A stretch of DNA of 8,862 bases from a bacterium BMS3Abin14 (lineage in GTDB: Bacteria; BMS3Abin14). The notes beneath the pieces are model-generated. The model saw only the letters and a program-made list of their open reading frames with translations. It was not told the origin of the DNA and did no database searches. The DNA is taken from assembly GCA_002897695.1 (NCBI GenBank), contig BDTG01000040.1:1-8862 (forward strand), in the 5' to 3' direction. A program made the position numbers and the translations under genes. Shown in pieces: positions 1 to 7,761 of this stretch (its first letter is position 1; each line of letters opens with the position of its first letter).

Positions 1-1197
1 GAGTCTGCAGCACATGGACCTTGCGTCATCGGGTGACATGTCGGAGTTGATAAAGTTGGCGAAATAGGGGATGCCGTATTTAGCGGTGGCTTCCCATAAC
101 CCATGCAGGTCAGGCTCATCCCAGGGAAAATCATGTGTGATGTTGTAGGTGGGGATCGGGAAAGTGAAGACCCGCCCTTTGGCGTCCCCTTCACACAGGA
201 CCTCCAGGAAAGCCCTGTTGAGCATATTCATCTCATGCTGAAATTCCGCGTATGTCTCCTCCTGCGCTTTGCCGCCGATTATAACCGGCTCCCCAGCCAG
301 GACCGTCGGAGGATGCAGATCGAGCGTCAGGTTGGTGAAGGGCGTCTGAAAGCCGACTCTCGTCGGCACATTGATGTTGAAGATGAATTCCTGAAGGGCC
401 TGTTTGACCTCTCTGTATTCCAGCCCGTCGTATCGGATGAAGGGTGCCAAAAGGGTGTCAAAGTTGGAAAATGCCTGTGCACCGGCGGCTTCGCCCTGCA
501 GGGTGTAGAAAAAGTTGACGATCTGTCCCAAAGCTGTCCGGAAATGGCGTGCGGGGCTGCTCTCCGATTTCCCTGGCGCACCCCTGAAACCCACACGCAG
601 AATATCCTGCAGGTCCCAGCCTACACAGTAAGCTGCGAGCTGTCCCAGATCGTGAACGTGCAGATCCCCTGATGCATGAGCCTCCCGGATTTCAGGGGAA
701 TAGATCTTGTTAAGCCAATATTCCTTGCATACTTCACTGGAAACGAAATTGTTTAACCCCTGCAGGGAATATCCCATGTTGCTGTTTTCTTTCACCTTCC
801 AATCCAGGCGTTCCAGGTAGCTGTCGATCAGATCGATATCGGCTTTCTGAACGAGTTCCCGGATGCGGGCATGCTGATCACGGTAAATGATATATGCCTT
901 TGCCGTTTTTTTGTATGGGGATTCCAGCAGGATTTCTTCAACGACATCCTGAATCCTTTCGACGGTTGGCAGGTCGTCTACCATTATAATTCCAGCCAGG
1001 GCAAGGGCTTTAATGGTAAGCTTGAGGGCCATGTTCTCATCGAACTCCCCGGTTGCTTTGCCCGCCTTATGGATGGCTTTCGTTATCTTTGATGCCCGGA
1101 AGGGGACGACCCTCCCATCCCGCTTCAGGATTTGAGTGAAATTCCCCGCTTCGTTCTTTTTTGCCGCTTCACGAACTGATTCCGTTGAGGTGTCCAT
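1..1197 (-). CDS. nrdD: Anaerobic (class III) ribonucleoside-triphosphate reductase, 5' part; runs off the left edge
   Basis: Reduces ribonucleoside triphosphates to deoxyribonucleotides in the cytoplasm under anaerobiosis, using a glycyl radical installed by the NrdG activase. The 399 codons in the window are open with no stop. An ATP-cone allosteric domain spans about residues 19-107 (KRDGRVVPF near 25-33, PTVERIQDVVE near 77-87, AYIIYR at 101-106). The catalytic barrel follows, with GDLHVHDLG (177-185), AQAFSNFD (240-247) and QTPFTNLTLDL (284-294). The visible part ends at RSMCCRL, the conserved double-cysteine region expected to hold the thiyl-radical cysteine. Family members are about 650-780 residues, so the C-terminal glycyl-radical site lies outside the window and nrdG is not seen. 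The start ATG at 1195-1197 follows AGGAAAGGAG with a 6-nt spacer. Upstream are a B12 riboswitch and NrdR-like operators. The family assignment is firm. Confidence 0.95.
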   Translation of the reverse strand, partial: MDTSTESVREAAKKNEAGNFTQILKRDGRVVPFRASKITKAIHKAGKATGEFDENMALKLTIKALALAGIIMVDDLPTVERIQDVVEEILLESPYKKTAKAYIIYRDQHARIRELVQKADIDLIDSYLERLDWKVKENSNMGYSLQGLNNFVSSEVCKEYWLNKIYSPEIREAHASGDLHVHDLGQLAAYCVGWDLQDILRVGFRGAPGKSESSPARHFRTALGQIVNFFYTLQGEAAGAQAFSNFDTLLAPFIRYDGLEYREVKQALQEFIFNINVPTRVGFQTPFTNLTLDLHPPTVLAGEPVIIGGKAQEETYAEFQHEMNMLNRAFLEVLCEGDAKGRVFTFPIPTYNITHDFPWDEPDLHGLWEATAKYGIPYFANFINSDMSPDDARSMCCRL

Positions 1198-1213
1198 ACC
1201 CGGCTCCTTTCCT

Positions 1214-1243
1214 GTGGATGCACCTATGAACAGGTGCATCCAC
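1214..1243 (-). repeat. Perfect 12-bp hairpin directly upstream of the nrdD ribosome binding site
   Basis: GTGGATGCACCT and its exact reverse complement AGGTGCATCCAC are separated by a 6-nt loop. In the nrdD mRNA the hairpin ends at the base immediately before the AGGAAAGGAG Shine-Dalgarno tract. No U-run follows, so it is not an intrinsic terminator. It may belong to the riboswitch expression platform, stabilise the 5' end, or keep the ribosome site open. The structure is certain as sequence; its role is inferred. Confidence 0.7.
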
Positions 1244-1271: not shown

Positions 1272-1398
1272 ACAGTGGTCTTTGGGAGAATTTCAGACAG
1301 CCGTGAGCTATGAGACAGGAATTTCTCAACAGGTATTCTGCCAGGCTGAACGCATCTTCCCTCGAAGGCGACGATCAATATACCGCGCTATTCGGCGG

Positions 1399-1590
1399 GT
1401 CGCCGGCAGGTCTTCGGACTTGTAGGCAGGTGATCCTCTCTGGAGGATCCGTTCCTACTGGCCGCCGCTTCCCAGCCCTTTGGGCCAGTGCTTATTGGCG
1501 ACGTTCGTTCCTACTTACCGCTGCGGGGCAGCCCCGGATTCTCACCGGGTTCCCTTGTATAACACTCCAAATAAGGAGTGTACCGGCAAC
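1399..1590 (-). promoter_or_regulatory. Cobalamin (B12) riboswitch in the nrdD leader
   Basis: Read on the minus strand, the region has the conserved AdoCbl-riboswitch elements in order. They are a GGGAA-like segment, GGTGAGAATCC, the GCTGCCCCGCAGCGGTAAG core (plus-strand 1514-1553), a variable peripheral domain, and the B12 box AGTCCGAAGACCTGCC (plus-strand 1405-1420). The two ends close a P1 helix of 8 pairs between 1583-1590 and 1399-1406, one of them G-U. Binding of adenosylcobalamin would be expected to switch off the downstream gene, here nrdD about 200 nt away. B12 repression of B12-independent reductases is known in bacteria that also carry a B12-dependent class II enzyme. The class is very secure. 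The expression platform (transcriptional or translational) is not clear, since no U-tailed terminator is seen before the start codon. Confidence 0.95.
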
Positions 1591-1593
1591 AAA

Positions 1594-1609
1594 GCACTAT
1601 ATATAGTAG
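1594..1609. promoter_or_regulatory. NrdR box 1, overlapping the nrdD -10 element
   Basis: GCACTATATATAGTAG matches the NrdR-box consensus ACACWATATATWGTGT at 13 of 16 positions, including the whole central CACTATATATAGT palindrome. NrdR is the ATP-cone repressor of ribonucleotide reductase genes. The box covers the predicted -10 hexamer (1598-1603), so bound repressor would block RNA polymerase. A second box lies 32 bp away. The nrdR gene itself is not in the window. Confidence 0.8.
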
Positions 1610-1626
1610 TCAGAATGTAATGTCAA
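1598..1626 (-). promoter_or_regulatory. Sigma70-type promoter for the riboswitch-nrdD transcript
   Basis: Reading leftwards on the minus strand, a perfect -35 TTGACA (1621-1626) is followed by a 17-bp spacer and a -10 TATATA (1598-1603, 4 of 6 consensus). The expected start, about 7 nt on, falls at about 1590-1591, which is the first base of the riboswitch P1 helix. This coincidence, plus the overlapping NrdR boxes, supports the call. Confidence 0.8.
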
Positions 1627-1641
1627 TACAAGATAATGTAT
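1626..1641. promoter_or_regulatory. NrdR box 2, at the upstream edge of the nrdD -35 element
   Basis: ATACAAGATAATGTAT matches the NrdR consensus at 12 of 16 positions. It begins 32 bp from the start of box 1, about three helical turns, which is the typical tandem spacing that puts both boxes on the same DNA face. Box 2 is weaker than box 1 alone; the phasing is what makes it credible. Confidence 0.7.
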
Positions 1642-1824: not shown

Positions 1825-2367
1825 CTATTGCGCCAGGTCAATTGTTTTCGATAGCTGGTATAAAGAAAGTGCATTATCATAAAAAACCTTTTCTGCGTAC
1901 CCTCCCAGAGCGTCTATAAGCAAACGGATATCATCGTCAGAATATGGCCTGGGTGCACGTGTTGACGGTCTGTCCGTTCCAAAAATCAGAGCATCAGGGT
2001 TTGCTTTACAGACATCTTGCAATGCCTGTTTGACATCAAAATCAACTCGACCAAAGCCGGTTGCTTTAACCTTTACACCACGCTCCACAAGCCAGAGCAA
2101 CGTTTTAAATCCTTTCTTTGACAGCCCCAGATGGTCAATGCTGACAGCAGGCAGTTTGATCAACCTGTCTTTAAGGTTGTCCAATTCAGAGGAGTCCACA
2201 TAAAGTTCAACATGCCATTTTGCCAAGTCGTACACTTGCTCGGCCAAACTTTCCAGATACTGAAGTTTCTCTGACCCTCCACGTTTGATGTTGAACCGTA
2301 CCGCTTTGACCCCAGCTTCGTTAAGCCGGGTAATTTCTTGGTCTGTGACAGTTACAGGTAACTGGGT
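1825..2367 (-). pseudogene. Amidohydrolase (COG3618 / amidohydrolase_2, TIM-barrel hydrolase), N-terminally truncated
   Basis: About 180 codons resemble the C-terminal two thirds of predicted TIM-barrel metal-dependent hydrolases related to 2-pyrone-4,6-dicarboxylate lactonase. Visible landmarks are TQLPVTVTD at the broken end, GVKAVRFNIKRGG, SIDHLGLS with its histidine, and LIFGTDRPSTRAPRPYSDDDI with the conserved FGTD aspartate. Family members are about 270-300 residues, and the missing N-terminus would carry the HxH metal-binding motif, so the remnant is probably inactive. The frame stays open a further 81 nt into the transposase region up to 2448, but that extension is antisense to the transposase and is not genuine. 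The stop is at 1825-1827. The roughly 180 nt between it and the nrdD promoter shows no gene or convincing terminator. The true substrate cannot be told. Confidence 0.8.
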
Positions 2368-3504
2368 ATCTCCAGTCGCAAACTGGAACGGGCGACATAT
2401 GATTCTGTGGCCTTTCGCTGCATTGCCGCCAACGATCACCCCGACCACGATACGATTGCCGCCTTTCGCAGGCGTTTTCTACCTGAGTTGGCCCCGCTCT
2501 TCGTCCAGATTCTGCTCATCGCCCGGCAGTTGGGGATTTTAAAGCTGGGCAAAGTCAGCCTCGATGGGACCAAGATCAAAGCCAACGCCTCTAAGCACCG
2601 AGCCTTGAGCTGGAAGCATGCCCGCAAGCTTGAAGCTAAACTCAAGGCTGAGGTCAAAGACCTTCTGAGACAGGCCGAAGAGGCCGATCAATCCGACATC
2701 CCCGACGGCATGGATATCCCGGCCGAACTGGCTCGCCGAGAAGACCGGCTGGCCGCCATTGCCGGAGCTAAGGCCGAAATCGAACAACGGGCTGCCGCGC
2801 GGTATGCGGAGGAACAGGCCGACTATGAAAAAAAGCTCGTTGCGCGTCAAGCCAAAGAACAGAAGACCGGCAAGAAAACCGGTGGCAAAAAGCCCAAGGC
2901 ACCCGTTGCCGGGCCCCGGGACAAGGATCAGGTCAACCTCACCGATGAAGAATCCCGGATCATGCCCATTTCCGGTGGTGGTTTCGACCAGTGTTACAAT
3001 GCTCAGGCCAGTGTTGATATCGAAACCATGCTGATTCTTGGTAGCCACCTTACTCAGAACCCTAACGACAAAATGGAAATGGAACCCGCACTTGAGGCTT
3101 TAAGCGCTCTACCAGAGAGCCTCGGTGCTGTTGATACCGTGCTGGCCGATGCTGGTTACCACAGTGAAGCCAATGTCGATCATTGTCTTCAACACGAGAT
3201 TCTCCCGCATATCAGTGCTGGACGCGAGACACATAATCAGACGCTCAAAGAACGATTCGGCGATCCGGATCCCTTGCCTGAGGATGCCGATGAAATCACA
3301 AAGATGAAGCACCGATTGAAAACCAGAGACGGCCGTGTTCTTTACGCTAAACGAAAATGCACCGTCGAACCGGTCTTCGGGATTATCAAGGCCATTATGG
3401 GTTTCCGGCAGTTTCAACTCCGCGGGGTGAAGCTCGTCAGTGGAGAGTGGGACCTGGTCTGCATGGCCTGGAATCTGAAGCGGTTACATACCCTGGCGGC
3501 ATAA
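2368..3504 (+). pseudogene. IS1182-family transposase, N-terminally truncated
   Basis: DDE transposase that would move its own insertion sequence. Family similarity begins at SSRKLERATYDSVAFR (from about 2371). A stop at 2359-2361 lies just upstream in frame, and the N-terminal DNA-binding part of IS1182 transposases (normally about 450-550 residues) is absent. The first usable start is GTG at 2407, giving 365 residues. Numbering from it, the catalytic triad is visible: D53 in SLDGTKIKA, D248 in VLADAGYHSEA and E321 in CTVEPVFGIIK. A lysine/alanine-rich coiled-coil insertion covers about 66-165, followed by EESRIMPISGGGFDQCYNAQ. The C-terminus (SGEWDLVCMAWNLKRL) is complete. The catalytic core is intact, but without the N-terminus and left end the element should be immobile. 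Confidence 0.88.
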
Positions 3505-4816: not shown

Positions 4817-6496
4817 ATGGAGTATCCGAGTGACCTGCTAAACCTCATCGGTGAAGTCGATCTGGAGGAGATTCTCACTGTTTTTACGAGAGCAATGGGT
4901 GTGGCGTCCATTATCACCCATGTAGACGGGACGCCCATCACCAAACCGCACAATTTCACGCGACTTTGTGAGAGGTATTGCAGAACTACCAAGGAAGGCA
5001 TAAAGAAGTGTAAACAGAGTGACAGGTACGGAGGAAGGGAATCGGCCCGAAAAAGGGAGCCGGTAATCTACAATTGTCTCAACGCGGGGCTGATCGATTG
5101 TGCGGCTCCAGTGGTTGTTGATGGGTATCACCTTGCTACCGTTTTGTGCGGCCAGGTGCTGGAAGAACCCTTGGAAGATGATGTGGCCCGGGAGAATGCT
5201 CTTTCCATAGGGATTTCAGATATTTCAGGATATATGCTGGAGTTGGCGCAGATTCCGATCATGAGCCGCTCACGCCTCCTGGACATTGTCAACCTGATGG
5301 CGCTTATCACGAAAACGGTGAGCGAGTTGGTGCTTGGAAAGTATCGGCTTTTCAAGAGTTCCCAGGAATACCTGAATGTTCTCATCAACAGCGTTTCCGA
5401 CAGCATTATTTCAACGGACAACGAACACAACATCACCATGGTCAACAATGCCAGTGAGCATATTTTTCAATGGGATACCAGCGAACTGGCCGGCAGATCA
5501 ATTCTGTCACTGCTGGCGGGTCAGAAATCTGTGGATACTTATCTGGATAAAGCCTCAAACCATTGCCAAGAGAAGAGCTGGTTAGGAGAACTGCTTGCGA
5601 AGAAATCGGACCAGACCGAATTTCCAGTCCGTTTGTCTATCTCTGCCATCGTCGATCCTGAAAAAGAGGTAAATACGGGATATGTCGCGGTAGTTCGCGA
5701 TATCTCGGAAGAAAAAAAGGTCCAGCGAATGAAAGAAGAATTGGTTGCCATGGTGACTCACGATATGAGGAACCCTGTTCTTTCGGTTGGAAAAGCCCTT
5801 CAACTTCTGGCTGCTTCCGATCTTGCTTTTGGTGAACGACAATTAGAGATCCTTACCATGGCCATCGGAACCACGAACCATATCTATGGGCTTGCCAACG
5901 ACCTGCTGGATAATTACCGAAGCGAAACCGGGCAGCTCAGCCTTTTCAAAACCATTTTCGACATCAGGGATATTGTTCGCAACAGCATCCAACAACTGAA
6001 GTTTTATTCAGACGACAAGGGGATAACCATTCGCTATCGGGTACCACAAGAACCGCTTAAACTGACCGGAGACAGTGTAAGATTAACACGTGTTTTTACC
6101 AATCTCTTTGAAAACGCGATTAAATACAGTCCCGAAGAAGGAATAATTGAGGTGTCCACCATCATGGTCTCCGGTTCCGACCTCAAAAGTGTTGAAAATA
6201 GCGTTCCCTCCCATCACAAGAAGGTTCTGGTGGATGGGAGGTTTTACATTCTAAGTGAGATCATAGACGGTGGAGTGGGCATCCCGGAAAAGTACCAGAA
6301 CTCTGTGTTCGATAAATTTTTCACCATTGAAACCATAAATCTTCCGGAAAGAAGGAGCGTGGGTATTGGCCTTGCGGTCTGCCAACAGATGGTGGAAGCC
6401 CATGATGGGTGTATCTGGGTGAAATCCCCCATGACACAATGCGGCCCCGGGAGAAATGGAGGCTGCATCTTTTCCTTCATTCTGCCTGCAGTATAA
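4817..6496 (+). CDS. PocR-PAS sensor histidine kinase, soluble
   Basis: Cytoplasmic two-component sensor of 559 residues with no membrane segment. Residues about 6-165 form a PocR domain: LLNLIGEVDLEEIL, the ITHVDGTPIT segment, NFTRLCERYC, NCLNAGLIDCAAPV and LCGQVLEEP, with cysteines 51, 55, 65, 87, 95 and 111. A PAS domain follows at about 182-300. HisKA has H315 in VTHDMRNP as the phosphorylated residue. The ATPase domain shows the N-box NLFENAIKYSP (N429, N433), the G1 box DGGVGIP (484-490, glycine for the usual asparagine) and the G2 box SVGIGLA. PocR domains are predicted to bind small hydrocarbon derivatives such as propanediol. With gldA downstream, glycerol or another diol is a reasonable but unproven signal. 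The ATG at 4817 is the first start codon in frame (the frame is open back to 4679), although its Shine-Dalgarno is weak. Response regulator genes follow. Confidence 0.9.
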   Translation: MEYPSDLLNLIGEVDLEEILTVFTRAMGVASIITHVDGTPITKPHNFTRLCERYCRTTKEGIKKCKQSDRYGGRESARKREPVIYNCLNAGLIDCAAPVVVDGYHLATVLCGQVLEEPLEDDVARENALSIGISDISGYMLELAQIPIMSRSRLLDIVNLMALITKTVSELVLGKYRLFKSSQEYLNVLINSVSDSIISTDNEHNITMVNNASEHIFQWDTSELAGRSILSLLAGQKSVDTYLDKASNHCQEKSWLGELLAKKSDQTEFPVRLSISAIVDPEKEVNTGYVAVVRDISEEKKVQRMKEELVAMVTHDMRNPVLSVGKALQLLAASDLAFGERQLEILTMAIGTTNHIYGLANDLLDNYRSETGQLSLFKTIFDIRDIVRNSIQQLKFYSDDKGITIRYRVPQEPLKLTGDSVRLTRVFTNLFENAIKYSPEEGIIEVSTIMVSGSDLKSVENSVPSHHKKVLVDGRFYILSEIIDGGVGIPEKYQNSVFDKFFTIETINLPERRSVGIGLAVCQQMVEAHDGCIWVKSPMTQCGPGRNGGCIFSFILPAV

Positions 6497-6636
6497 TAGC
6501 TTTGCCTGCGTTGTCAGGTGGACCCGGGTAGTGGCCACCCTGCATTCGGGTTAGGTGTGGAGGATGTGTTTTCGCCGCGTTTTCAGTAACTGTTGATCAC
6601 AGAAGTGATTCGAGTCGTGGTCTGGAGGAAAGGACA

Positions 6637-7296
6637 ATGATTTGTGAGGAGTTTCCGGAACTGATCAAGGTGTTTGTGGCCGATGACCACCCACTGCTGC
6701 GAGCTGGTTTAAGGCTTTCTTTCACGGTGGAAAACGGGTTCGAGTACGTTGGAGAGGCCGCGGATGGGTTTACAGCTGTGGACAAGATAAAGGCCCAGCG
6801 CCCCGATGTTTGCCTTATCGACATCGATATGCCGGGGCTTTCCGGCATCGAGGTAATCAAGATCATAAGGAAGACATCTTCTGAAATGAAGATTCTCGCA
6901 CTTTCCACTTTCAAGGACGAAAAATTCGTTAAAGACGCCATGAGAGCCGGAGCGGATGGCTATCTCCTCAAAAGCATCGGTCTCGACGATCTTGGAGATA
7001 TCATTAGAGCTTTTTACCGTGGGGAGCAGATAATCTCTCCATATTTGGCCAATCTGACCCTACTGTGTCATGTGGAGGTTGAATCTTCCCAGGGTCCCCT
7101 TGATCAGCTGACCAGAAGGCAGCACGAAGTTTTTAATCTTATTGTCGAAGGTAAGTGCAACAAGGACATTGGGCGCCATCTGTACATCAGCGAGGATACG
7201 GTTAAAACCCATGTTAAAAATATTTACAGGAAGATACGTGCCAGGAACCGGGTTGAAGCGATAAAGGTCGCCCATGAGATGAAAGCCAGAATGTGA
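6637..7296 (+). CDS. NarL/FixJ-family response regulator (receiver plus LuxR-type HTH)
   Basis: A 219-residue DNA-binding regulator and the likely phosphorylation target of the kinase encoded 140 nt upstream. The receiver (about 9-130) has acidic residues D16 and D17 in VADDHP, phospho-acceptor D62 in LIDIDMPG, the switch S90 in LALS and K112 in LLKS. The C-terminal LuxR HTH (about 157-212) reads LTRRQHEVFNLIVEG, then NKDIGRHLYISEDTVKTHVKNIYRKI. All features of a functional regulator are present. GGAGG lies 8 nt before the ATG. The 140-nt gap after the kinase holds no convincing gene or terminator, so co-transcription is likely. The target promoter is unknown; the gldA upstream gap is the nearest candidate. 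Confidence 0.93.
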   Translation: MICEEFPELIKVFVADDHPLLRAGLRLSFTVENGFEYVGEAADGFTAVDKIKAQRPDVCLIDIDMPGLSGIEVIKIIRKTSSEMKILALSTFKDEKFVKDAMRAGADGYLLKSIGLDDLGDIIRAFYRGEQIISPYLANLTLLCHVEVESSQGPLDQLTRRQHEVFNLIVEGKCNKDIGRHLYISEDTVKTHVKNIYRKIRARNRVEAIKVAHEMKARM

Positions 7297-7347
7297 GCCG
7301 CAGGACGACCTTGGGAACGATTATTGCCAAACACAACGGAGGTGGTA

Positions 7348-7761
7348 ATGAAAATATTATTTGCTGACCAGGACCCGCTTTACAGAACAGCGCTGAAGTA
7401 CAGCCTTGATTGTGAAGAAGATTTCATCTCAGTGGGTGATTCCTGGGACGGCATGAAATCCGTCAATCGAATGAGGCCCGACCCGCCGGACGTCTGTTTG
7501 ATCGACCTGAACGGAAACGGTTTTCAATGCCTCAGAACGATCAGGACACTTAAAAAAAACTTTCCGCAGACAAAAGTGATCATTCTGTCGTCTTATGACG
7601 ATGAAAACAGCATCAACGAGGCGGTTGTTGCCGGCGCAGATGCCTACATCCTGAAAAGCATTGGATCCAAGGAATTAGCCCAAGTTGTCAGGGCTCTCCA
7701 CAAGGGTTCGACAATCAGCTCTTTTTATATGCTGAACAGTGGAAAGCATCACCCCCTCTGA
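7348..7761 (+). CDS. Stand-alone receiver-domain protein, degenerate, paralogous to the preceding regulator
   Basis: A 137-residue receiver without an output domain. It aligns with the preceding regulator (shared PDVCLID, AGADxYxLKSIG and VxRAxxxG segments), so it probably arose by duplication and loss of the HTH. The acceptor D53 and K103 in ILKSIG are kept, with serine at 81/82. However, the acidic pair has become D7-Q8 (ADQDP), and the loop after D53 reads LNGNG, about three residues shorter, with the usual MPG missing. Mg2+ binding and phosphorylation may therefore be altered. It could act as a phosphate sink, an adaptor or a phosphorylation-independent switch. The ATG at 7348 is preferred over one 8 codons upstream because GGAGG sits 5 nt before it. 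It starts 51 nt after the previous stop, so the two are likely co-transcribed. Confidence 0.85.
   Translation: MKILFADQDPLYRTALKYSLDCEEDFISVGDSWDGMKSVNRMRPDPPDVCLIDLNGNGFQCLRTIRTLKKNFPQTKVIILSSYDDENSINEAVVAGADAYILKSIGSKELAQVVRALHKGSTISSFYMLNSGKHHPL

Follow-up and report, generated by a model that had tools for sequence, protein, structure and literature searches.

NrdR is said to have been described by Grinberg in 2006 as a DNA-binding repressor of the Streptomyces RNR operons. The protein binds DNA together with dATP plus ATP/ADP and tolerates spacers of 14–17 bp (PMC12176259, PMC12051234). In Listeria monocytogenes a pair of NrdR boxes with a 16-bp spacer overlaps the RNA polymerase site of nrdDG, as in the locus presented here, but no riboswitch is mentioned and the start codon is located 13 bp downstream of box 2 (PMC12051234). 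According to the part of PMC5962746 that cites Borovok 2006, the leader of Streptomyces nrdABS, an operon for a B12-independent reductase, contains a B12 riboswitch, with a class II enzyme as the alternative; this resembles the present locus except that nrdABS encodes the aerobic class Ia enzyme and nrdD belongs to class III. Desulfovibrio vulgaris and Desulfuromonas have a B12 element before the class III genes nrdDG, with NrdJ also in the genomes and the same proposed logic; the part of PMC545781 concerned describes the element before nrdDG, with no mention there of NrdR boxes or promoter geometry. In Cutibacterium (Propionibacterium) acnes nrd-boxes and a cobalamin riboswitch are found together on nrdAB and nrdDG, and as here both inputs are on the same reductase operons, the genome has a B12-dependent nrdJ and layered control was proposed (PMC3848588). 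However, the P. acnes nrdAB promoter bears one nrd-box, not two, and the box pair of nrdDG is situated far downstream of the active promoter (PMC3848588), whereas in our locus the promoter itself bears the pair and the predicted +1 is where the riboswitch begins. Since the P. acnes combination is already published, control of reductase genes by NrdR and a riboswitch is known and the nrdD gene described here adds to a known type, and the register between -35 and box 1 is a modest new regularity. No description of a fixed base-to-base stacking was found in the literature searched on NrdR- and B12-controlled reductases.

The window (the whole stretch of DNA that was analysed, 8,862 nucleotides) contains at one end the first part of nrdD. 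Boxes, promoter, riboswitch and nrdD are all on the minus strand, and toward the gene the order is box 1, -35, box 2 over the -10, riboswitch, a 190-nt expression platform, Shine-Dalgarno sequence and ATG:

1626–1641, minus strand: NrdR box 1 (promoter-distal), ATACATTATCTTGTAT, 12/16 to the consensus, PWM 12.0 bits
1621–1626, minus strand: -35 hexamer TTGACA, a perfect match by sequence
1594–1609, minus strand: NrdR box 2, CTACTATATATAGTGC, over the -10, 13/16 to the consensus, PWM 19.5 bits
1596–1603, minus strand: -10 candidates, TATATA (1603–1598, 4/6, 17-bp spacer) and TATAGT (1601–1596, 5/6, 19-bp spacer)
1588–1592, minus strand: transcription start predicted from the promoter hexamers, about G1590
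1388–1602, minus strand: cobalamin riboswitch aptamer RF00174, cmscan 111.6 bits
1538–1543, minus strand: L5 loop GAGAAU of the aptamer, from the aptamer match and leader comparison
1340–1351, minus strand: candidate anti-start strand GUUCAGCCUGGC, from a two-sequence consensus fold
1286–1291, minus strand: candidate L13 AUUCUC, complementary to L5 over 6 bp
1214–1243, minus strand: 12-bp hairpin immediately upstream of the Shine-Dalgarno sequence, from sequence and predicted fold, without a U-tract
1204–1213, minus strand: Shine-Dalgarno sequence AGGAAAGGAG, from sequence
1–1197, minus strand: 5' part of nrdD, 399 aa with an N-terminal ATP-cone (NF006126 572 bits, PF03477 and PF13597)

The nrdD start codon is the ATG at 1197 and the gene runs off the contig end, with the remainder on contig C36, joined by an exact contig overlap of 126 bp. 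The product belongs to the class III reductases, with a score over the cut-off of NF006126, the glycyl-radical sequence RVVGYLRP near the C terminus, and nrdG (NrdG2, TIGR02495) adjoining the remainder of the gene. Elsewhere in the window, positions 1825–3504 hold a fragment of an amidohydrolase-family gene (minus strand) beside an IS1182-type transposase frame (plus strand), the start of which is missing since only profile positions 84–488 were matched. Positions 4817–7761 encode a PocR-PAS histidine kinase and then two NarL-like receiver proteins, of which the second lacks a DNA-binding domain; a glycerol dehydrogenase gene follows.

An earlier note on this DNA had reported two NrdR-like palindromes with 13/16 and 12/16 matches at a distance of 32 bp, and these were reproduced by counting matches to the consensus ACACWATATATWGTGT, by shuffling and by a scan with an NrdR matrix. 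The two 16-bp palindromes are placed 32 bp start to start, which gives a 16-bp spacer, within the range of 14–17 bp (PMC12051234), and they are near a reductase gene in a genome that encodes an NrdR with Zn ribbon and ATP-cone. The pair score of 25/32 was reached by 1 of 2000 dinucleotide shuffles of the 1-kb upstream region and by 0 of 2000 shuffles of the local 200 bp. The palindromes might be mere A/T-rich promoter sequence, with NrdR inactive here and B12 as the single input, and the core TATATATA does partly resemble any -10 region, the distal box being 12/16. This is very improbable, as the local shuffles already argue, and the sister species G001 has exactly the same box 1, a box that does not reach the -10, although the sequence immediately upstream diverges. 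G001 conserves the two boxes at the same spacing together with the -35, and its box 2 is CTACTATATATAGTGT, with a last base closer to the consensus than that of the window. A tandem-box model of 53 positions (R1) was trained on 23 other nrdD loci or promoters, among which were neither the window nor its sister. Of all sites in the 2.28-Mb genome it scores the window site best (E 2.4e-5, the next being at E 0.55), and a strict single-box pattern has the window site as its sole match in the genome. In family members without nrdD, the best R1 sites are found at nrdJ, which also speaks for an active NrdR.

Box 1 and the -35 share a single base, the T at 1626 with which the box ends and the hexamer begins. 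The promoter had been called consensus-like, which fits the perfect -35 hexamer but is generous for the -10, where the candidates match at only four of six positions with the optimal spacing or at five with the longer one, and a simple promoter scan did not list it. The riboswitch was claimed to be complete, and the match to RF00174 is indeed full length (model 1–189, E 5.6e-28) and above the gathering score of 31.5; it is located in the leader of nrdD, with NrdJ encoded elsewhere in the genome. The transcript should also begin where the riboswitch begins, as had been proposed, with +1 predicted at about 1588–1591 and the inner P1 run of the Rfam alignment beginning to pair at 1589. Three of the four outermost P1 pairs of the model are non-canonical, and those pairs would fall upstream of +1.

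No intrinsic terminator-like site was found in positions 1000–2000, and the start-codon region is paired in the predicted folds of both the window species and G001. For these reasons translational shut-off is, on the folding models, the better guess for the output of the riboswitch, held with modest confidence, and premature termination is the alternative. In the consensus fold GUUCAGCCUGGC pairs with 1192–1204 (GCCGGGUAUGGAC, which contains the AUG), and the differences between the window and G001 preserve the pairs. The fold of the full window leader prefers another partner, 1287–1315, for the initiation region, and the single-sequence folds of the two species disagree on the partner strand, this reading of the expression platform being drawn from two closely related sequences. 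The candidate L13 is AUUCUU in G001, with the pairing to L5 kept by one G-U. As a general feature of riboswitch-bearing nrdD loci the L5–L13 pairing was unsupported, comparable complementarity being absent in many other loci.

The same two inputs might instead act with a riboswitch that works by premature, for example Rho-dependent, transcription termination and not by hiding the start codon. The long leader, with a strong predicted hairpin at about 1253–1270 and the one at 1214–1243, would suit such a mechanism, and in P. acnes much nrdAB transcription does not reach the first gene (PMC3848588). A U-tract is missing after both hairpins, however, and the lack of a terminator-like site in 1000–2000 together with the paired start-codon region makes termination a possible but rather doubtful output. 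The perfect hairpin at 1214–1243 has a loop that is reverse-complemented in G001 (GTTCAT versus ATGAAC), as if the hairpin had been inverted.

From the two control elements it had been predicted that the genome would encode both NrdR and a B12-dependent class II reductase, and the two were found. NrdR matches TIGR00244 (208.6 bits, E 7e-62), and the DNA-contact residues D15, R17, R26, R28 and R37 named in PMC12176259 are all present in the host sequence. The class II adenosylcobalamin-dependent NrdJ matches NF006417 with 1206 bits and also TIGR02504. A class I small subunit was not found in the genome. CobQ was not found there either, nor above the family cut-off in any of the 12 family genomes, and an order-level search returned the same 12 genomes. 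Genes for BtuB, a TonB-like protein and BtuF are located downstream of the only other cobalamin riboswitch in the genome, and B12 seems to be obtained by uptake, as judged from one missing marker, CobQ. With NrdJ present, no class I small subunit, no CobQ, and a B12 importer under the other riboswitch, nrdDG reads as a B12-free backup. Within the family nrdD was found only in the genus of the window, and NrdJ in 11 of the 12 genomes.

The best R1 site is just upstream of nrdJ in six relatives without nrdD, and a weaker one is found there in a seventh, G008. In the genus of the window nrdJ has a weaker tandem (13.1 and 6.5 bits, 14-bp spacer), which appeared on re-reading at 30-bp spacing, and the idea that NrdR control had left nrdJ in this genus was therefore dropped. 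NrdR thus probably covers both reductases, with the riboswitch specific to the B12-free one. The tandem NrdR site upstream of nrdJ is seen in G002, G005–G007 and G010, which have NrdJ only. The NrdJ of the window species (L006:2983–6486, minus strand, contig C8) contains an intein of about 370 aa in a frame of 1174 aa; the frame is uninterrupted in G001 (798 aa) and has 1171 aa in G008, so that the intein is sporadic and apparently a recent acquisition of the enzyme for which nrdD would be the backup.

The earlier note had proposed a two-input gate on nrdD, and sequence conservation and genome context support it. The sequences show the control elements, how these are placed and conserved, and the genes that go with them, and from this we infer with considerable confidence that nrdDG provides a reserve reductase that needs no B12 and is under two consecutive OFF switches. 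At high levels of dATP and ATP, NrdR would bind both boxes as a tetramer, lie over the whole -10 and the edge of the -35, and prevent initiation. RNA that escapes NrdR would start at P1 of the riboswitch, and binding of adenosylcobalamin may then promote an L5–L13 contact that favours the start-codon region in a long-range helix, by which translation would be shut off. Under this scheme nrdDG should be expressed only in cells that are low in dNTPs and at the same time have too little B12 for NrdJ, the essential class II enzyme.

The arrangement was compared in 80 related nrdD loci from named genomes, 21 of which have a cobalamin-type riboswitch in front of nrdD. With boxes scored by a matrix trained solely on riboswitch-free loci, TTGA is found within 2 bp of the 3' end of the first box in 13/13 riboswitch-bearing loci with tandem boxes, compared to 1/29 box-bearing loci without a riboswitch (Fisher p 5e-10). 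A search of that one riboswitch-free locus, L024, for a hidden riboswitch gave no hit with the E limit raised to 1. In the window and its sister, too, the -35 stands at the end of box 1. Box 1 starts 34–42 bp before the Rfam riboswitch start in 11 of the 13 loci (L018 and L086 are exceptions) as well as in the window and its sister, and where it was computed the predicted +1 is 9–16 nt beyond the Rfam start, in the vicinity of the first pair of the P1 core. The stacked layout thereby recurs in related genes from several bacterial groups, with phylum labels taken from MAG titles, in which binning errors are possible. Further cobalamin riboswitches on the opposite strand are located back to back with the nrdD one and just upstream of it, at 2424–2609 in L016, 2149–2368 in L023, and 2064–2249 and 2384–2564 in L032, Desulfobulbus elongatus DSM 2908, which has two and is a culturable relative whose nrdD locus shows the same layout.

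The tight stacking had been put forward as something special. It is present, but the combination is known from P. acnes and the register is common to many related nrdD loci, probably by descent. In the protein tree 22 of 23 riboswitch-bearing genes are in one branch of 29 rows (support 98), and the riboswitch label changes 7 times as against 20.4 in shuffles. With most two-input loci in one NrdD clade and so few label changes, shared descent is the simplest cause and can account for most of the association between register and riboswitch. It is accordingly rather probable that the common register reflects inheritance and not functional design, one NrdD clade taking its promoter-riboswitch leader along on transfer to other lineages. 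That would explain where the layout came from, and the gene could equally well be under the two OFF switches. The kin-corrected test with independent pairs could draw on just 2 pairs with support, of which 1 agrees, and hence is without power. Against inheritance as the sole cause, riboswitch-free box-bearing loci inside the clade mostly do not have the register (1/7 do; Fisher p 1.3e-4, uncorrected for kinship). More tentatively, and with somewhat more doubt than trust, boxes, core promoter and riboswitch may form a single composite cassette of fixed geometry, kept by selection and moved between phyla with nrdD. In this geometry the end of box 1 falls within the -35, box 2 covers the -10 and transcription would start at P1, and selection for it is proposed because a repressor box downstream of +1 would be transcribed ahead of the aptamer.

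With two OFF switches in series on nrdDG, two metabolite sensors would act one after the other on one essential gene, in an organism that seemingly relies on imported B12 for its main reductase. Two-input reductase genes can be sought with the recurring register as a simple sequence signature, which could also serve tests of whether protein and RNA sensors combine independently.
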